DNA of 64,000 bases from positions 1,116,001-1,180,000 of the forward strand of contig NZ_JAHKRR010000001.1 in the NCBI RefSeq assembly GCF_018863395.1, in the 5' to 3' direction. Below the pieces are notes generated by a model that was given only the letters and a program-made list of their open reading frames with translations, did not search any database and was not told where the DNA came from. The translations under genes and the position numbers were made by a program. Each line of letters begins with the position of its first letter. Within the stretch, counting starts at the first letter, position 1. Positions 8,770 to 31,717 of the stretch are shown in pieces. This stretch comes from Sinomicrobium weinanense. Lineage in GTDB: Bacteria; Bacteroidota; Bacteroidia; Flavobacteriales; Flavobacteriaceae.

Positions 8770-9546
8770 ATGAAAAATAAGATAAAACCAACCGACCGAA
8801 GAAATTTTATAAAATCAGCATCCCTCGCTTCCGCAGGTTTATTGGGTTTTAGTACCATGCAGGCCGGAAATACCGTTAAAAAAACATCCCTTAGCATTCC
8901 GGGTAAACTCACTGTATTGTTCCAGGGAGATTCCATTACCGATGCCGGAAGGGACCGGGGGCATTACTATGCGAACGACGTTCGCGGTATGGGGCACGGC
9001 TATGTGCTCGATATTGTAAGCCGTATCATGGCCGAGAACCCAAAAACGGAATGGGCCATCTACAACCGCGGGATCAGCGGCAATAAGGTGTATCAACTGG
9101 CCGACCGATGGAAAGACGATTGCCTTCAACTACAACCCGATGTACTGAGCATACTGATAGGTGTTAACGATTTCTGGCACACCCTGAACGGTAACTACAA
9201 CGGAACGGCCAAAGTCTATGAACAGGACCTGAGAAAATTACTGGACCGTACCCTGAAAAAGTTCCCCGATGTAAAACTTATCCTCGGTGAGCCTTTTGCA
9301 GTAAAAGGCGGCACAGCCATTACGGATCGATGGTCCTCCGAATTCAATGCTTACAGGGAAGCTGCTGCACAAATAGCCAAAGATTATAATGCGGTTTGGA
9401 TACCTTACCAGGAAGTTTTCGACAAGGCGTTGAAGACTGCCCCTGCCTCGTACTGGTGCCCGGATGGTGTGCATCCATCCATGCCCGGGGCTTATCTTAT
9501 GGCAGATGCCTGGATAAAAGGGTTTGAATCCATTTACAATACATAG
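8770..9546 (+). CDS. Tat-exported SGNH/GDSL hydrolase, probable carbohydrate esterase
   Basis: 258 residues. A twin-arginine signal (DRRNFIKSASLASAGLLGF) precedes the SGNH fold. Block I is QGDSITDAGRD (nucleophile Ser), block III is IGVNDFW, and block V is DGVHPSMPG (catalytic Asp and His). Family members include acetyl-xylan and rhamnogalacturonan acetylesterases. Its place between a GH95-like enzyme and two unsaturated-uronyl hydrolases suggests it removes acyl groups from a uronic-acid-containing glycan. A terminator follows at 9585. Confidence 0.88.
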   Translation: MKNKIKPTDRRNFIKSASLASAGLLGFSTMQAGNTVKKTSLSIPGKLTVLFQGDSITDAGRDRGHYYANDVRGMGHGYVLDIVSRIMAENPKTEWAIYNRGISGNKVYQLADRWKDDCLQLQPDVLSILIGVNDFWHTLNGNYNGTAKVYEQDLRKLLDRTLKKFPDVKLILGEPFAVKGGTAITDRWSSEFNAYREAAAQIAKDYNAVWIPYQEVFDKALKTAPASYWCPDGVHPSMPGAYLMADAWIKGFESIYNT

Positions 9547-9740: not shown

Positions 9741-10934
9741 TTATTTCCCTTCCAGGTGCTTTTTCCGGAGCAGTGCTTCCAGGTAGTAATAGTCGGCGTA
9801 AACCAGAGGTACGTCCACTTCGCTTCCGGACGGTTTGGAGCCTACACTGTGCAGTAGTATAAAGCCCTGTGCACCTCCTTCCGGAGCTGTGTATACTGTG
9901 GAAAGGGATTTTATGATCTTATCGGCAGCACTGCGATACTTTTTTCCTGCTTTGCTGAAGGTACTCAGTTCATACAAAGCCGAGGCTATTACAGCGGCTG
10001 CGGAAACATCTCTTTCCTCGTTAGGGATCTCCGGGGCATCGAAATCCCAGTAAGGTACCAGATCGGCAGGCATATTGGGGTGGTTAAGGATGCAAGCTGC
10101 GATCTTATCAGCTTGTTGTAAATACTCCTTGTTCCCGGTTTCCCTGTAACACATGCTATAACCGTAAAGCCCCCAGGCCTGTCCCCTGGCCCAGGCCGAT
10201 CCGTCACTGTATCCCTGGTGGGTATTCCTTTTTTCTACGGCACCGGTCACGGGGTCATACCCGATAACGTGGTAGGAGCTGTTGTCTTTGCGGAAATGAT
10301 TTTTCAGGGTGGTGTTGGCATGGCTGACGGCTACCTCATAAAAAACTGAATCTCCTGTGATCTCCGTGGCTGCAAAAAGCAATTCCAGGTTCATCATATT
10401 ATCGATGATCACCGGGAATTTCCATTTGTCCTTATTATGGTCCCAAGAGCGTATGGCTCCGACAGCAGGGTTAAAGCGCTTTATCAGGGTTTTGGCCGAC
10501 TGTACGATCACATCGCGATAATCCCTGTTTTTGGTAAGCCTGTACCCATTTCCAAAGCTGCAATAGACCTTAAACCCCATATCGTGGGTCCCGGCATTCC
10601 ATTTTTCCTTTTCTATACCGGCTGTAAAAGTTTCTGCATTTTTGAGCCATACACTATCCCTGTTGTATTCGTACAGGTACCACAATACTCCCGGGAAAAA
10701 ACCACTCGTCCAGTCGCCGGAATGGACCAGGCGGAGTTTCCCGGATGGTTCCAGGTTACGGGGGGAAATGCCTTTGCCATCGCCCTCCTTTTTTTCCTTT
10801 TCCACAGCGTTCAGCATAATCCCCGTTTGTTTTTCGGCATGCCGAAAGGCCCGGTCTACATCGGTCTGTTGTGCTGTACAGGAAAAAACAAGCAGCAGGG
10901 ATAAGAGAAGAAAGTAAAGTTTTTTATACATCAT
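9741..10934 (-). CDS. GH88 unsaturated glucuronyl hydrolase (lipoprotein)
   Basis: 397 residues with a lipobox ending at Cys19 (LLLVFSC). The (alpha/alpha)6-barrel signature of GH88 is clear: SGDWTSGFFPGVLWYLYE, THDMGFKVYCSFG (Asp), IDNMMNLELLF (second Asp), SDGSAWARGQAWGLYGY and VPYWDFDAPEIP. GH88 enzymes hydrate the 4,5-double bond of oligosaccharides made by polysaccharide lyases, releasing the unsaturated uronic acid. With the GH105 gene upstream on the same strand it points to a lyase-cleaved acidic glycan. A good -7 box lies at 10985-10978, so it has its own promoter. Confidence 0.92.
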   Translation of the reverse strand: MMYKKLYFLLLSLLLVFSCTAQQTDVDRAFRHAEKQTGIMLNAVEKEKKEGDGKGISPRNLEPSGKLRLVHSGDWTSGFFPGVLWYLYEYNRDSVWLKNAETFTAGIEKEKWNAGTHDMGFKVYCSFGNGYRLTKNRDYRDVIVQSAKTLIKRFNPAVGAIRSWDHNKDKWKFPVIIDNMMNLELLFAATEITGDSVFYEVAVSHANTTLKNHFRKDNSSYHVIGYDPVTGAVEKRNTHQGYSDGSAWARGQAWGLYGYSMCYRETGNKEYLQQADKIAACILNHPNMPADLVPYWDFDAPEIPNEERDVSAAAVIASALYELSTFSKAGKKYRSAADKIIKSLSTVYTAPEGGAQGFILLHSVGSKPSGSEVDVPLVYADYYYLEALLRKKHLEGK

Positions 10935-10977
10935 TGTTGGTTTTTAATATCAATAAGTGAGATTGGATCTTCAAGTT

Positions 10978-10985
10978 CAAAACTA
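10978..10985 (-). promoter_or_regulatory. -7 box for GH88 gene (TAGTTTTG on minus strand)
   Basis: Plus-strand CAAAACTA reads TAGTTTTG on the minus strand, an exact TAnnTTTG match, 43 bases before the GH88 start codon. Confidence 0.5.
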
Positions 10986-11096
10986 AGCACCTCCCTTATG
11001 TTTTTATTATGCTTTTTTAACCTGACATTATACGATATTGGCCATTTTCGGAAAAAGGACGGAACTGTATCAAGAGGATTTTTTTTTGCCCTGGAA

Positions 11097-12233
11097 TCAG
11101 CGCAGCAAGGCGGTGGTACACCACAGCACGGGGGCCTGCCCGTGCATATCCCCCACTATACGTTTCCGGTCGAGGTAATACTGTCTGTTGTTCTTTTTAT
11201 TGGTCCCCTGGCACACTTCCCGCACATCGCCATCGGGATTGATATAACCGGTCAGGGCTATCCAGCCTTTTCTCGCTGCCGGGCCGTATATCTCCTTGTC
11301 GAGCCATCCCTGTTTAACCCCGGTGATCATGGCAAAGGTGAACATCCCGGTACAGGAGGTTTCGGGCCACGAACCGGGATCGTCGACAAGCTGCCGCCAC
11401 ATACCGTCTTCAGCCTGATATTTCAGCAGGGAGGCCATCATGGTCTTATATCCTTTCATGATACGCGGATAATCCGGGTTCTCTTCGGGGAGTGAACGGA
11501 GCAACTCGGCCATCCCGGCTGCCATCCACCCGTTACCCCTTCCCCAGTAAAAAGGGACGTCGGGGGCATGATAGAACAATCCGTTGGGCTTTTGTAAGGT
11601 ATCGAGATATACCGTCATTTCCCGGGCGGCGCGTTCCATGTATTTCAGATCTCCCGTAGCCCTGTATGCCTGGGATTGTATGGCAGTGATCATATACATA
11701 TCATCTATCCACATACGGGTTTGCCAGGTAAGCCCCTTATCGTAATAAATGTGGGACTCCGGGGTTACCCTGGGGCCTTCCGGAGGCCCCCACTGTTTGT
11801 CTGCAAAGCCTTTTCCCATCTCCAAGTATTTTTGTTTGCCGGTCTGCATGTACAGTTCCAGGGGTACGGTACCGAAAACGGTATAATCGACATGATCGGG
11901 ATAAGGCACAAGATCTGCCTTTTCTGAGAGCAGTGGTTTAAAACGTTGCTCGAGACGCCGCGTCAGTACTGTATCTTTTATTTGTCCGGAAAAAGTAAGT
12001 GCTCCATACCAGGCACATACTTCGGAATAGGTGAGATTATTTGGTTCGCCCGGCCTGCCAAAATTCTGATAGGGTACGGCCAGAAAACGTTCTGTTACTT
12101 TCTGGCCTACTTCCCGTGGAGCCGCTCCATCGGGAAAATCCTTAAAATATTTGTCTGTTCCGGTGCTTTGGGGATCCTTACAGCCCAGGAGCAGCATACC
12201 GAGCATTACGGGGACCTGCCATCTTTTATTCAT
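11097..12233 (-). CDS. GH105 unsaturated rhamnogalacturonyl-type hydrolase (lipoprotein)
   Basis: The frame extends to 12263, but the second Met at 12233 begins a proper SPII signal (MNKRWQVPVMLGMLLLGC, Cys18), giving 378 residues. GH105 hallmarks are PDHVDYTVFGT, TWQTRMWIDDMYMI (catalytic Asp), FYHAPDVPFYWGRGNGWMAAGMAELL and ETSCTGMFTFAM. Family members cleave unsaturated galacturonyl or glucuronyl residues from lyase products of pectin, ulvan and related glycans. It probably works with the GH88 enzyme 162 bases downstream. Confidence 0.92.
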   Translation of the reverse strand: MNKRWQVPVMLGMLLLGCKDPQSTGTDKYFKDFPDGAAPREVGQKVTERFLAVPYQNFGRPGEPNNLTYSEVCAWYGALTFSGQIKDTVLTRRLEQRFKPLLSEKADLVPYPDHVDYTVFGTVPLELYMQTGKQKYLEMGKGFADKQWGPPEGPRVTPESHIYYDKGLTWQTRMWIDDMYMITAIQSQAYRATGDLKYMERAAREMTVYLDTLQKPNGLFYHAPDVPFYWGRGNGWMAAGMAELLRSLPEENPDYPRIMKGYKTMMASLLKYQAEDGMWRQLVDDPGSWPETSCTGMFTFAMITGVKQGWLDKEIYGPAARKGWIALTGYINPDGDVREVCQGTNKKNNRQYYLDRKRIVGDMHGQAPVLWCTTALLR

Positions 12234-26689: not shown

Positions 26690-29650
26690 CTAACTTTCAA
26701 ACCTGGGGTCCTGGATATAATCTTCTTTTCTCATCTTTACCACTTCTATACTGAAAAAACCGAACTCATTGACTACCTTTCCGTACATGCGGTATATACC
26801 TTTCCCCCTGAATTTGTTTTTATGTGCCACCGGAGGGAAAAGAACGGTATCGAATACCTCTCCGTAACAATCGATAAAGGTGGCAAAGAACATTTCCTTC
26901 CCGCGGTGGGTCTGTGTCTTTTTTATCGCCACGAGATAGCCGTAAATATCGATATACCTGTCCTGGCTGTATTTCAGGTCCTGGGCACCTTTGTGGCTCC
27001 GCGGCCTTTCCTGCAACAGTTCGAAAGGGCTGCACAGGCAGAACCCAAGCAGCTCCAACTGGTCAAACGCAGCTTCCAGCCCGGTGGTTTGCAATGCCGG
27101 GACTGCAAACTCTTTTTGTTGCGTCCTGAACATCTGGTACTGGGATTCTTCCCCGGGGACCACACCTTGTCTCAGATGTGCCTGCCACAGCAGTTCGTAC
27201 TTATCTGTCCCTGTAAACCGGAAAGCACCAACGCGTATGAGTATGGCCAGCTGCTCCACACTTATGGGCACCCTGTTTATAAAATCTTCCAGGGAGGCAA
27301 ACAGGCCGTTGCTGTCGCGTTCTTTCAGGATCCGGTAACAAACCCGGTCTTCGAGCTCTTTCAGATACCCGAAACCGAGATAAATGTCTTTTCCGGATAT
27401 CCGGGTCTCCATACGGCTGCTGTTAATACAGGGTACGTGAACTACGGCCCCCAGCATCCGGGCTTCGTGTATATAGATCTCCGGGCGGTAGAAGCCGCCT
27501 CCGTTGTTCAGCACGGCTACCATAAATTCCAGCGGGTAATAAGCCCTGAGAAACAGGCTCTGGTAACTTTCTATGGCATAGGAAGCGGAATGCCCTTTGG
27601 CAAAGGCATACCCCGCAAAACTTTCTATCTGTTTCCACACCTCCAGGATCACTTCATCGTCATATCCCTTTTGCCTGCAGTTGGCAATAAACCTGGCTTC
27701 GACCTCCCCGAATTCTGCCCGTGAACGGAACTTTCCGCTCATTCCCCTTCGCAATACATCAGCTTCGGCCAGGGTAAGCCCTGCAAAATGGTGAGCTACT
27801 TTAATCACGTCTTCCTGATAGACCATGACGCCATAAGTCTCGGGCATGATCTTCAGCAGTACGGGATGTGCCTGTTGTACCCGTTCGGGATCCTGGTGCC
27901 GGAGGATATATTCCCGCATCATCCCGCTTTTGGCCACTCCGGGACGGATAATGGAACTGGCCGCCACCAATCCCAGGTAATTGTCTACCTGCAATTTTTT
28001 GAGCAGCATCCGCATGGCAGGCGATTCTACATAAAAGCAGCCCATACACTGTGCACTCTCCAGCATGGCGTGTATTTTCGGGTCTTTTTTAAAACGGTTT
28101 ACATCGTGGATATCGGGGACTTCGGCTTCCGGACGGTTATACCGGATAATCTCCAGGGCCTCCTTGATCTTGGCCAGTCCGCGCTGGCCCAGTATATCGA
28201 ACTTGTACAGCCCTACGTCCTCGGCAATATGCATATCAAACTGTACGGTAGGATATCCCTTGGGGGGCAAAAAGGTGGCGGAAAAAGTGTTTAAGGGCAC
28301 TTCACTGATAAGGATACCACTGGCATGTACGCTGATATAGTTGGGCATCCCCTGGATGAGTTTCCCGTACTTTAAAACCAGTTGCGAAGGCTGGTCCAGG
28401 TCGTGAAGGTTGTAATGGCCTTCACTCAGGCGGTCGATATCTTCCTTGGGCAAGCCGAAGACCTTTCCCAGTTCCCGCACTACTCCTTTATAATTAAAGG
28501 TAACATAGGTGCCCAACAGAGCTACATTGGAAAAACGTTCAAAAATATACCGGGTAACATCGTCCCGGTCTCTCCAGGAGAAGTCGATATCAAAATCGGG
28601 CGGTGTACTCCGGAACAGGTTCATAAAACGTTCGAAATACAAATCCAGCTCCAGGGGGTCCACATCGGTAATGCCCAGCAGATAGGCCACGATGCTGTTG
28701 GCTCCGCTGCCCCTGCCCACGTGAAAGAACCCTTGTTGTTTGGCATAGGTTACAATGTCATAATTGATCAGGAAATAAGAGACAAAATCCTTTTGCCTGA
28801 TGAGTTCCAGCTCCCTCTGCAGGCGTTCCAGGGCCATATCCTGGTTGTCCGGGTAGCGGTAGTGGATGTTTTTCATGCAGCATTCCAGGAGATATGCTTC
28901 GTCCCGGGCCTTATCCCCGGTGTAAGTTTGCTGGTTACTGCTCTGTTTGGCCGCAGAAAAATCGAAGGTCACATGGCATTCCTTCATCAACCGGGCCGTA
29001 TTTTCCAGGATAAAATGATACTGATCGAAAGCCTTGTACAGGTTTTCCGGGGGATACATTTTTTCGTCTTCCGGAGCGGTATCTTCGGGAGACAATTTAC
29101 TGAGCAAAATATTCTTGTCTATGGCCCGAAGCAGTTTGTGGGCGTTAAAGTCCCTCCTGTTCCGGAAAGTCACAGGTTGAAGGACCACCAGCTTGTTCTG
29201 CTGATTCCGGTATACAGACAGGGGCAGCTTTCGCAGGTCATTGACAGAGATCCCTATGTATTCGTTTTCCCCGAGATCTTTAAACTGGTGTTGTGCTGCC
29301 TTTTCCAGGGGATAAATAATAACGGTATGCGGAATGGCCGGGGGGCGGCCGGGAAAATCCCTGCCTTCGTGCAGGTGTTCGGACAGAAAACTATTGAGTG
29401 CGGCATAGCCCGTATTGTCTTTGGCTATACCTACAAACTGCTGATCTGTGCCGTTCCTGAAATCCACGCCCACAATGGGCTTCACATCCATACTTTCTGC
29501 CTTACGGATAAAATTAAGGCAGGCCGAGGTATTGTTGATATCGGTCAGGGCCAGTTGTGCAACGTGGTTTTCACGGGCCAGTTCCAGGAGTTCCACTTCG
29601 GAAAAAGTACCGAAGCGCAGGCTGTAATAGGTGTGGCAATTTAAATACAT
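26690..29650 (-). CDS. dnaE2: DnaE2/ImuC-like error-prone DNA polymerase III alpha subunit
   Basis: 986 residues, shorter than replicative DnaE (about 1,160). The N-terminal PHP domain is degenerate: the usual HxH is CHTYYS and the later DH is TDIN. The polymerase core is intact (HVGRGSGANSIVAYLLGI, PDFDIDFSWRDRDD with the catalytic Asp pair, GQRGLAKIKEALEII, FAKGHSASYAIESYQ). The C-terminal HhH and OB parts (INRVPISVEQL, DIYGYLVAIKKTQTHRGKEMFFA) are present, but the tau-binding tail is absent. It is translationally coupled to the Y-family polymerase by a TAATG overlap at 29650, and both lie under the HTH-S24 repressor. The role is damage-induced translesion synthesis. Confidence 0.93.
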   Translation of the reverse strand: MYLNCHTYYSLRFGTFSEVELLELARENHVAQLALTDINNTSACLNFIRKAESMDVKPIVGVDFRNGTDQQFVGIAKDNTGYAALNSFLSEHLHEGRDFPGRPPAIPHTVIIYPLEKAAQHQFKDLGENEYIGISVNDLRKLPLSVYRNQQNKLVVLQPVTFRNRRDFNAHKLLRAIDKNILLSKLSPEDTAPEDEKMYPPENLYKAFDQYHFILENTARLMKECHVTFDFSAAKQSSNQQTYTGDKARDEAYLLECCMKNIHYRYPDNQDMALERLQRELELIRQKDFVSYFLINYDIVTYAKQQGFFHVGRGSGANSIVAYLLGITDVDPLELDLYFERFMNLFRSTPPDFDIDFSWRDRDDVTRYIFERFSNVALLGTYVTFNYKGVVRELGKVFGLPKEDIDRLSEGHYNLHDLDQPSQLVLKYGKLIQGMPNYISVHASGILISEVPLNTFSATFLPPKGYPTVQFDMHIAEDVGLYKFDILGQRGLAKIKEALEIIRYNRPEAEVPDIHDVNRFKKDPKIHAMLESAQCMGCFYVESPAMRMLLKKLQVDNYLGLVAASSIIRPGVAKSGMMREYILRHQDPERVQQAHPVLLKIMPETYGVMVYQEDVIKVAHHFAGLTLAEADVLRRGMSGKFRSRAEFGEVEARFIANCRQKGYDDEVILEVWKQIESFAGYAFAKGHSASYAIESYQSLFLRAYYPLEFMVAVLNNGGGFYRPEIYIHEARMLGAVVHVPCINSSRMETRISGKDIYLGFGYLKELEDRVCYRILKERDSNGLFASLEDFINRVPISVEQLAILIRVGAFRFTGTDKYELLWQAHLRQGVVPGEESQYQMFRTQQKEFAVPALQTTGLEAAFDQLELLGFCLCSPFELLQERPRSHKGAQDLKYSQDRYIDIYGYLVAIKKTQTHRGKEMFFATFIDCYGEVFDTVLFPPVAHKNKFRGKGIYRMYGKVVNEFGFFSIEVVKMRKEDYIQDPRFES

Positions 29651-30864
29651 TACTGTTTTCTATGTGCTAAAATGGTTGGAGGTTGTCCGTTAAAGGGATT
29701 GGTCATTCTCCCTATGGTCTTTACTCCCATGGCCGCGGCCCGGGTAATGCTGCGGTCGCCATACCGCAGGCGGATCTTGTCCATAGCCTGGTACAGGCGG
29801 ATGGTCTCTTCGGTATCTTCAAACAGGTTGATCTGATAGTTGCCGTGCACCAGGTGGCTGAACTTCACCCCGATAAGGCGTACAAGCAGCCTTCGGTTAT
29901 ACAGCCGGTGGAACAGTTCCAGTATCCTGGGGATAAGGATATGGTCGGCACTGGTGTAGGGGATTTTCATTTGTTTGGAATAGGTCTGAAAATCGGAATA
30001 CCTGATCTTTACACTGATACAGGCCGTAAGTTTTTCTCCTTTCCGAAGCTGAAAGGCCAGGTTTTCCGTCATGGCGGTCAGCAGCGACCGGAGCCGGTGC
30101 ACATCTATGGTATCCCGGTCAAAAGTCCGCTCTGTGGAAATGGATTTTCGTTCGGAAAAAGGAATTACCGGGGTCTTGTCTATCCCGTTTGCCCGCTCCC
30201 AGATGGTCAGTCCGTTACGGCCCAGCACGCGGTACAGCATTTCCCCCGGCATTTCCTGAAGGGTCCTTACCTGCTTTATGCCGAGGTTGCGCAGGGTCAG
30301 GTAGGTCTTGTCACCTATCATGGGAAGTTTCCTTATTGACAATGGGGCTAAAAAAGGTTTTTCCCGTCCGAACGCTATCCTGATCTGGTTATTGGGCTTG
30401 GCTTCGTTGGTGGCTACTTTAGAAACCACCTTGTTCACAGAAAGCCCGAAGGATATCGGCAATCCGGTTTCCCGGATGATCTTCTGCCGGAGCTCGGAAG
30501 CATAGCGATAAGTACCGAAAAAACGGTCCATACCCGAAAGGTCGGCATAGAACTCATCTATACTGGACTTTTCGAACAGGGGCACGTTTTCCCGGATCAA
30601 TTCGGTGACGGCCTCGGAATACCTGGTATATGTCGCGGCGTCTCCCTTAATGACCTTAGCGTCCTGGCACAACTCCTTCGCCAGTTTCATCGGCATACCG
30701 CTGTGTATACCAAAGGCCCGGGTCTCATAACTACACGCAGCTACCACTCCGCGGTCACTGATCCCTCCTACCAGCAAAGGCTGTCCTTCCAAGCGGCTGT
30801 CTAACAACCGCTCTACGGAAACAAAAAACGTGTCCAGGTCCAGGTGAAGGATAGTCCGGTTCAT
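29650..30864 (-). CDS. dinB: Y-family DNA polymerase (Pol IV type), catalytically complete
   Basis: 404 residues. The palm carries the metal ligands Asp9 in LHLDLDTFF and Asp103-Glu104 in SSIDEFYADLSG. The steric-gate and fingers region has VAACSYETRAFGI. Helix-hairpin-helix (IRKLPMIGDKT) and little-finger domains follow. QINLF near the C-terminus is a typical beta-clamp binding motif. ImuB proteins of classic mutasomes lack the acidic triad; this one keeps it, so it should be an active translesion polymerase. It is first in a two-gene operon with the DnaE2-like gene and divergent from the S24 repressor, with the operators between them. Confidence 0.95.
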   Translation of the reverse strand: MNRTILHLDLDTFFVSVERLLDSRLEGQPLLVGGISDRGVVAACSYETRAFGIHSGMPMKLAKELCQDAKVIKGDAATYTRYSEAVTELIRENVPLFEKSSIDEFYADLSGMDRFFGTYRYASELRQKIIRETGLPISFGLSVNKVVSKVATNEAKPNNQIRIAFGREKPFLAPLSIRKLPMIGDKTYLTLRNLGIKQVRTLQEMPGEMLYRVLGRNGLTIWERANGIDKTPVIPFSERKSISTERTFDRDTIDVHRLRSLLTAMTENLAFQLRKGEKLTACISVKIRYSDFQTYSKQMKIPYTSADHILIPRILELFHRLYNRRLLVRLIGVKFSHLVHGNYQINLFEDTEETIRLYQAMDKIRLRYGDRSITRAAAMGVKTIGRMTNPFNGQPPTILAHRKQ

Positions 30865-30870
30865 ATATCA

Positions 30871-30881
30871 GGAATTTTTCC
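30871..30881. promoter_or_regulatory. Operator O1, GGAATTTTTCC
   Basis: An 11-bp palindromic core GGAA-TTT-TTCC centred at 30876, at the predicted transcription start of the polymerase operon. The flanks do not extend the palindrome. It is the weakest of three sites. Confidence 0.7.
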
Positions 30882-30888
30882 AAAAATA
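30881..30888 (-). promoter_or_regulatory. -7 box of the Y-polymerase/dnaE2 operon (TATTTTTG on minus strand)
   Basis: An exact TAnnTTTG match on the minus strand, placed between operators O1 and O2. A TTTTG at 30908-30904 may be the -33 element. Repressor on O1 and O2 would cover both promoter elements. Confidence 0.6.
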
Positions 30889-30903
30889 TGGAATTTTTCC
30901 ATA
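30887..30903. promoter_or_regulatory. Operator O2, 17-bp perfect palindrome
   Basis: TATGGAA-TTT-TTCCATA, centred at 30895, two helical turns (19 bases) from the centre of O1. It lies in the spacer of the polymerase promoter. Confidence 0.75.
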
Positions 30904-30927
30904 CAAAAGGAAATGATCCGGTGTTTT

Positions 30928-30944
30928 TTTGGAATTTTTCCAAA
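30928..30944. promoter_or_regulatory. Operator O3, 17-bp perfect palindrome
   Basis: TTTGGAA-TTT-TTCCAAA, centred at 30936, 41 bases from the centre of O2. It covers the TTTG (-33) element of the repressor's own promoter, so it should give negative autoregulation. Confidence 0.75.
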
Positions 30945-30952
30945 TTAAAGCC

Positions 30953-30960
30953 TATATTTG
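30953..30960 (+). promoter_or_regulatory. -7 box TATATTTG of the HTH-S24 repressor gene
   Basis: An exact TAnnTTTG match with TTTG at 30928-30931 upstream, a 21-base spacer. The box ends 4 bases before the ATG at 30965, so the transcript should start at or next to the start codon and be leaderless. Confidence 0.65.
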
Positions 30961-30964
30961 TCTT

Positions 30965-31717
30965 ATGTCCAAAAACTTAAATACCGAAATACGGCACTTT
31001 AAAATGCTCCGGCAGGAACTGAACCTGACGCAACAGGCTTTTGCCGAGCGCCTGGGTATCAAAAATTCCACGGCAGATATCGAAAGGGGAAAGACCAGGA
31101 TATCCGGGGAAGTGGTCGCCGCATTGCTCGAACAGTTCGGGATCAATCCGCTGTGGCTGTTCGGGAAAAGCGAACAGAAGTATCTGCGGAGTACGGAACA
31201 AAGTATACTTCCCAAAGTAGTGACCTTAAATTCGTCGGAAAACGAAAATATCGTACTGGTAAATGTCAGGGCCTCCGCCGGGTATGCACATAACCTGCAG
31301 GACCCGCAGTGGTATGATACCCTCCCCGCCTTTGACCTGCCCCTGCCCGAATACCGCAATGCCTCGCACCGGGGGTTTCAGGTAGAAGGCAACAGCATGC
31401 ACCCCGTATTGCATTCCGGGGAATGGGTCATTGCACGTGCAGTAGAAAAGCTGTCGGACATTAAAGAAAACCTGATCTATGTGGTAGTACTGCCAGATAC
31501 GGTGGTCGTGAAAAAAGTCGTTGTTTCCGGAGAAAAACTACAGCTTGTCTCTATCAATCGGGAATATCCTGCAATTGAAGCAAATGCCGGGGACGTACAG
31601 GAGATATGGCAGGTAATCAGTAAGATCTCCGGCCAGCTGGAAATGGCTTCGCAAAACCTAGGGACCTGGGCCGAAGAGATCAGATCGGAACTGAAAGAGA
31701 TACGAAAACGGCTGTAA
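30965..31717 (+). CDS. HTH-S24 (CI/LexA-like) self-cleaving repressor
   Basis: The frame is open from 30929, but ATG 30965 sits just after the promoter and gives a normal HTH start, for 250 residues. The HTH_3 domain spans about 13-60 (MLRQELNLTQQAFAERLGI). The linker has ASAGYA with Ala105-Gly106 as the expected autoproteolysis bond. The S24 peptidase domain has Ser144 in GNSMHP and Lys183 in VVVKKV. RecA-filament-stimulated self-cleavage would lift repression, as in LexA and CI. It is divergent from the two-polymerase operon and flanked by three matching palindromes. It is likely the local SOS regulator. Confidence 0.93.
   Translation: MSKNLNTEIRHFKMLRQELNLTQQAFAERLGIKNSTADIERGKTRISGEVVAALLEQFGINPLWLFGKSEQKYLRSTEQSILPKVVTLNSSENENIVLVNVRASAGYAHNLQDPQWYDTLPAFDLPLPEYRNASHRGFQVEGNSMHPVLHSGEWVIARAVEKLSDIKENLIYVVVLPDTVVVKKVVVSGEKLQLVSINREYPAIEANAGDVQEIWQVISKISGQLEMASQNLGTWAEEIRSELKEIRKRL

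Follow-up and report, generated by a model that had tools for sequence, protein, structure and literature searches.

How is mutagenesis switched on in a bacterium in which no canonical LexA is found, and how far does the switch reach? The question is raised by positions 26690-31717 of a 64,000-nucleotide stretch of the Sinomicrobium weinanense genome (contig NZ_JAHKRR010000001.1, 1,116,001 to 1,180,000; hereafter the window), where a repressor gene lies across a 100 bp gap from a divergent pair of genes for a Y-family polymerase (PolY) and a DnaE2-type polymerase. We interpret this locus as an autoregulated SOS-type mutagenesis cassette under a non-canonical LexA, and put the probability of that interpretation at about 0.88. 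The argument is carried by the gene anatomy, the catalytic residues, the operator array, the conservation of that array and of the gene linkage, and the lack of a canonical LexA. Earlier publications cover the repressor family and its operator, induction by mitomycin C in relatives, and PolY-DnaE2 pairs that lack ImuA; the cassette, apparently uncharacterised in the genus (no title on DNA repair was among the matches listed for the Sinomicrobium literature), can be placed within that regulator family and polymerase pair. What is new here is modest: two such cassettes in one genome, with little sign of further targets. Papers are cited by PMC number.

A repressor divergent from a coupled polymerase pair

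The repressor gene occupies 30965..31717 on the forward strand and encodes 250 residues from an ATG at 30965, the start taken here; the list of open reading frames (ORFs) begins it at the first TTG, 30929. On the reverse strand lie PolY (29650..30864; 404 residues) and the DnaE2-type C-family polymerase (26690..29650; 986 residues), whose start overlaps the PolY stop: in the sequence TAATG, the TAA stop codon and the ATG start codon have one base in common. An earlier reading of this DNA (the original prediction) had described a helix-turn-helix (HTH)-S24 repressor divergent from a TAATG-coupled pair of polymerases, and both the ORFs and their domain matches agree with it.

The repressor matches the Pfam domains HTH_3 (PF01381; 2e-11), in keeping with the CI-type HTH regulator that had been proposed, and Peptidase_S24 (2.9e-12). 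Its Ala105-Gly106 site and its Ser144 and Lys183 had been numbered exactly, and they are invariant in 21/21 aligned repressors as well as in all 79 rows of a wider alignment (81 translations, two of 150 residues or fewer being left out). Canonical LexA identity was rejected: the protein passes no curated NCBIfam cut-off, and TIGR00498 is not among its matches. A structure model of low confidence (mean predicted local distance difference test, pLDDT, 64) matches both LexA and lambda CI. The closest named relatives are the repressors of Sinomicrobium pectinilyticum (82% identity) and S. oceani (80%). Kinship to the characterised repressor of Salegentibacter agarivorans (accession WP_075324850.1) was judged through locus L094 of that strain; the L094 repressor is 54% identical, and its promoter carries GGA-N5-TCC sites.

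PolY contains the IMS and IMS_C domains of Pfam, and its closest solved relative by sequence is DNA polymerase IV (7yll; E 1.6e-57). Its acidic triad, D9/D103/E104, is intact as originally predicted, and the same holds in 30/30 PolY loci checked. At residue 344 stands QINLF, presumably a clamp-binding-like motif. From residue 357 there follows a weak stretch resembling the N-terminus of RecA, with a score of 25 that was equalled or bettered by 109 of 2000 shuffles, next to 23 for a DinB tail used as control. Unshuffled scores are 32 for the second PolY of this genome, described below, and 34 for that of Zhouia; a RecA-like motif in PolY is no more than suggestive. The DnaE2-type protein has PHP, DNA_pol3_alpha, finger and HHH_6 domains and the motifs PDFDIDF and KFDILG, the latter as an exact string not being found in the DnaE2 of Zhouia, of loci L098 and L136, or of genome G010.

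Operators and promoters

In PMC8565304 (Sanchez-Osuna et al. 2021), Bacteroidetes are described as lacking LexA and relying instead on S24 repressors whose HTH domains are of the CI type. These fall into two clusters with the operators GGA-N5-TCC, mainly in Flavobacteriaceae, and CTAA-N5-TTAG. For Salegentibacter agarivorans, that paper reports binding in electrophoretic mobility shift assays and induction by mitomycin C.

The original prediction overlooked the control region of the cassette. Four GGANNNNNTCC sites begin at 30871, 30890, 30909 and 30931 (spacing 19, 19 and 22) within the 100 bp divergent region, 30865-30964. Among 20,000 shuffles of that region that kept its dinucleotides, the mean was 0.05 sites and none reached three. 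We scored sites with a matrix built from 183 GGA-N5-TCC sites found upstream of repressor genes in named relatives, leaving out the four Sinomicrobium loci; the GGA and TCC core letters of this matrix are fixed by the choice of sites. The first operator, O1 (GGAATTTTTCC; 30871..30881), scores 18.4 bits and touches the predicted PolY -7 element. O2 (GGAATTTTTCC; 30890..30900), 19 bp from O1, scores 19.9 bits, and O4 (GGAATTTTTCC; 30931..30941), which ends 11 nucleotides before the predicted repressor -7 element, has the window's top score at 25.8 bits. O3 (GGAAATGATCC; 30909..30919) is degenerate (-3.1 bits), and the site in the same place of the second cassette reaches 22.5 bits. The best-scoring place elsewhere in the 64 kb has 3.6 bits, against 18.4-25.8 for the three strong sites.

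For both promoters we applied TAnnTTTG, which we take to be the -7 element consensus of Bacteroidota. The predicted repressor element (TATATTTG; 30953..30960, forward strand) ends 4 nucleotides before the ATG, and that of PolY-DnaE2 (TATTTTTG; 30881..30888, reverse strand) places TAnnTTTG at -24 (locus L219). Among relatives, 42/79 repressor promoters have a TAnnTTTG at 19-22 bp from where the last site starts. Given the short distance to the ATG, the repressor mRNA may be leaderless. By eye, similarly tight spacing occurs in several relatives, and a longer leader in others.

These features suggest how the cassette would work. Repressor dimers of the GGA-N5-TCC type would occupy the operator array and shut both promoters. 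Filaments of RecA on single-stranded DNA would then provoke repressor self-cleavage at Ala105-Gly106 via Ser144 and Lys183, after which translational coupling would ensure joint synthesis of PolY and DnaE2. The two polymerases, together with RecA and the sliding clamp, would act as a translesion, mutagenic complex of the DnaE2B-PolY-RecA type.

Conservation across the Flavobacteriaceae

We examined 149 genomes of the family; they are related, and the counts are therefore not independent events. The repressors fell into two groups, a close one in 54 genomes (E < 1e-50) and a distant one in 49 (E 1.9e-34 to 3.9e-17), with both present in three genomes; 26 weaker matches (E 1.8e-12 to 9.4e-4) were left out of the cross-table. 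The two groups may correspond to the two published operator clusters. PolY (E up to 1e-60) is found in 76 of the 149 genomes, and 75 of these 76 also have a repressor of either group, compared with 25 of the 73 genomes without PolY. In G017, the lone genome with PolY and no such repressor, a weak match (E 9.4e-4) stands at a distance of a few hundred bases from PolY.

The linkage recurs across the family in at least three layouts, and it is found on plasmids as well. For 7 of the 55 close-type repressors (the window genome's two among them) and 31 of the 53 distant-type ones, PolY is divergent and no more than 6 kb away. The order repressor, dnaE2, polY is seen in the distant-group genome G034 and, judging from gaps of about 3 kb, appears to hold in part of the other distant-group genomes. 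PolY adjoins the repressor in at least eight of the best 80 named loci (L076-L080, L098, L136 and L151), a lower bound since the contig ends near the repressor in some loci (for example L081, L121, L124 and L151); in L151 it ends after PolY and before any DnaE2.

Operators are conserved along with the genes. At least two GGA-N5-TCC sites within 220 bp are present in 77/79 repressor promoters of named relatives, a condition shared by 0.16% of random 220-mers and 0.14% of A+T-matched ones from the same loci. We also examined the PolY promoters at 30 of 79 PolY places. Where a genome has a close-type repressor, matrix matches occur in 23/24 cases (the window genome's counted), even if the repressor lies elsewhere; where it has the distant type only, they occur in 0/6. 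A site pair exactly 19 bp apart characterises 22 of the 23 positive promoters, one of these pairs including a one-mismatch site. PMC8565304 describes two or more sites per promoter as common; the 19 bp pairing was not found stated in the available part of that paper. The one genome with a close-type repressor and no match at the PolY promoter is G010. There a gene for an SOS response-associated peptidase (SRAP) separates PolY from the repressor; four sites fill the interval from the SRAP start to the repressor start, and a fifth is within SRAP. This SRAP gene (locus L250, 5140-5988) runs in the same direction as PolY.

Extent of the regulon

The genome is a draft of 30 contigs, 98.5% complete. 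A full-genome search for lexA, suggested by the original prediction, returned no canonical LexA: 0/6 genus genomes pass the TIGR00498 cut-off, and 6/14 control genomes do. In line with the proposed lack of ImuA, none of the 6 genus genomes has a match over the cut-off, but 0/14 controls pass either, so the sensitivity of the test is not shown; the window genome's sole match to the ImuA model lies inside recA, below the cut-off. There are three Y-family and three C-family genes, comprising the PolY-DnaE2 pairs of the window and of contig C9 together with a DinB and a 1479-residue DnaE on contig C25. All three Y-family proteins retain D/D/E; none is an ImuB in this draft genome, and none reads as a UmuC.

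Genome-wide operators were sought with four strict patterns and the matrix, one-mismatch sites being left aside. GGAAWWWTTCC gave 61 sites (50 listed), WWGGAWWWWWTCCWW gave 12 (all listed) and WGGAWWWWWTCCW gave 54 (50 listed); a further pattern with 252 sites (about 50 listed) served only to choose the first stretches. Among the sites examined, 58 score above 4 bits. Of these, 45 are well within ORFs of at least 100 residues, seven belong to the cassettes (three in the window, four on C9) and six lie elsewhere. Two of these six precede an ORF of at least 100 residues by no more than 250 bp. The plausible candidate, C1:796623 (17.7 bits), is intergenic and about 40 bp before an ORF that by eye resembles an acetyltransferase. 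C25:497635 (13.4 bits) stands about 200 bp before an ORF resembling ribosomal protein S12, and C9:2754 (22.8 bits) lies in an apparently cut-off gene, both judged by eye. The other three (8.9 to 10.6 bits) have no ORF of at least 100 residues starting within 250 bp. Among the sites listed, then, we found no operator array outside the two cassettes and one plausible single site.

These numbers bear on the alternative that survives best, namely that the repressor is a global regulator of a wider SOS regulon, including recA, dinB, uvr and splB, with the cassette as one target among others. The GGA-N5-TCC regulators of relatives do control several operons (PMC8565304). Further, every pattern exceeds its backwards control (252 against 121, 61 against 30, 12 against 7, and 54 against 16), an excess in which real single sites may be hidden; 11 of the 61 and 4 of the 54 strict-pattern sites fall outside those listed, and C1:796623 would suit such a regulon by its score and position. 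However, neither the recA region (1.5 kb upstream) nor the dinB region contains a matrix site above 9 bits, most of the 58 sites are buried in ORFs, only two of the six outside the cassettes are near an ORF start, and none of the three Y-family genes reads as a UmuC. We therefore regard a wider regulon as unlikely. A local circuit, common to the two cassettes, fits this genome better, because the only operator arrays found are the cassettes' own. The original prediction of a self-contained local circuit thus holds as to "local"; as to "self-contained" it needs qualification, since C9 shares the operator type and has a nearly identical HTH segment.

Several points weigh against the autoregulated mutagenesis cassette that we favour. 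The recA region has no site above 9 bits, O3 scores poorly in the window, and exact TAnnTTTG is missing from 15 of the 30 PolY promoters (115 bp each). Confidence in the repressor model is low, and the RecA-like stretch of PolY is weak, scoring close to its DinB control and being matched by 109 of the 2000 shuffles. Finally, we infer repressor binding, RecA-driven cleavage and induction at this locus by analogy with relatives, and complex formation and a mutagenic outcome are matters that we only infer. Should the regulon truly consist of the polymerases alone, it would represent a natural SOS response that mutates without repairing.

A second cassette and its mobile context

A second complete repressor-PolY-DnaE2 cassette with the same layout occupies 5363-10396 of contig C9 (L026; 11,895 bases). 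Its proteins are 70% (repressor), 84% (PolY) and 75% (DnaE2) identical to those of the window. It carries its own four-site array at 9546, 9565, 9584 and 9605 (20.9, 22.9, 22.5 and 14.5 bits), spaced nearly as in the window, and the two repressors differ at three positions in a 29-residue stretch of the HTH. Because the operator type is the same and this HTH segment is nearly identical, the two cassettes probably regulate each other.

In the DnaE2 tree the C9 copy groups with Zhouia amylolytica (97/97) and the window copy with Sinomicrobium (98/98). The repressor tree, confined to close-type repressors, agrees weakly on the pairing of C9 with Zhouia (86/85), and the PolY tree leaves it unsettled. 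The proximity of its DnaE2 to that of Zhouia suggests that the C9 cassette was gained horizontally. We speculate that the SOS response here has shrunk to inducible mutagenesis, run by two autonomous cassettes of which one was apparently gained horizontally; each would recognise the operators of the other, so that the arrival of the second would have rewired control of the first. This is a tentative proposal and we hold it to be somewhat doubtful. Cross-regulation after horizontal gain would be directly testable in a cell with two cassettes of the same code. What remains of modest interest is that the regulon appears to have been reduced to two mutagenesis cassettes with a common operator code.

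Related cassettes are also found on plasmids, for which five records matched and three (L283, L284 and L285) were inspected. On plasmids of Chryseobacterium shandongense and Emticicia, an HTH-S24 repressor is divergent from PolY and DnaE2-type genes, the S24 match of the former lying below the Pfam cut-off. An Adhaeribacter plasmid has SRAP, PolY and DnaE2-type genes, with a CTAA-N5-TTAG site before PolY. Such plasmids, together with the CI-type HTH and S24 domains of the repressor, could favour a prophage or plasmid remnant in which a CI-like repressor stands beside polymerases by chance and does not regulate them. Yet linkage and operators recur family-wide despite altered gene order, and just three phage records match the repressor, the best at 28% identity. 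A remnant of this kind is thus very improbable, and a recent phage origin of the repressor was rejected for want of a close relative among the phage records searched.

Several features of these mobile settings may be added. On C9, the cassette is in the company of defence and mobile genes: an LmuB-like fragment (113-910), transposase ORFs (1144-2596) that include an rve-type ORF, presumably IS3-like, and an IS66-type piece, and an AbiGi-like ORF (10723-11595). One of the three inspected plasmids is typed as conjugative, and the Chryseobacterium plasmid has a different palindrome, TCATAATTTATGA, between its divergent genes.

Relation to published systems

That the cassette is a departure in need of a new explanation, as the original prediction implied, is not supported: repressor, operator and ImuA-less pair are described in PMC8565304, PMC6511836 and PMC12926913. 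The window repressor resembles the GGA-N5-TCC cluster of PMC8565304 in its HTH_3 and S24 domains, its Ala-Gly and Ser-Lys residues, its occurrence in Flavobacteriaceae, and the presence of sites both at the promoter of the repressor gene and ahead of an operon of dinB-type and dnaE-type genes. The GGA-N5-TCC network of that paper consists mostly of dinB homologues, which frequently share an operon with a gene for DNA polymerase III alpha, and in S. agarivorans no induction of recA was seen. Here, in contrast, the repressor gene and its polymerase targets point in opposite directions, and the regulon that can be detected hardly extends beyond two such cassettes.

The polymerases show no clear difference from the pair of active Y-family polymerase and DnaE2 without ImuA that PMC6511836 describes in Bacteroidetes (PolY2-DnaE2), and which PMC12926913 names DnaE2B-PolY-RecA. 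The latter ties a large Bacteroidetes DnaE2B group to an active PolY and separates this group from the DnaE2A linked to ImuA and ImuB. In our case an active-type PolY and a DnaE2-type gene form an operon and no ImuA was found; PolY activity is judged from residues, and both the complex and DnaE2B membership are putative. That the cassette belongs, in diverged form, to the classic imuA-imuB-dnaE2 mutasome is hardly credible and was rejected, for it shares with that LexA-controlled, damage-regulated operon a Y-family gene, a DnaE2-type gene and an S24 repressor, but no imuA was found (by a model that passes in no control), the Y-family active site is kept, unlike that of the dead ImuB, the regulator is not LexA by TIGR00498, and PMC12926913 sets the Bacteroidetes DnaE2B with active PolY apart from DnaE2A.

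A second DnaE2 per genome is not new in itself, since two or three DnaE2 genes per genome are already on record for some Bacteroidetes (PMC3919608). In Elizabethkingia (PMC8565304) a repressor likewise lies opposite an error-prone polymerase gene, and there both are induced by mitomycin C; its operator differs, being TTAC-AAATT-GTAA, which the paper discusses with the CTAA-N5-TTAG group.

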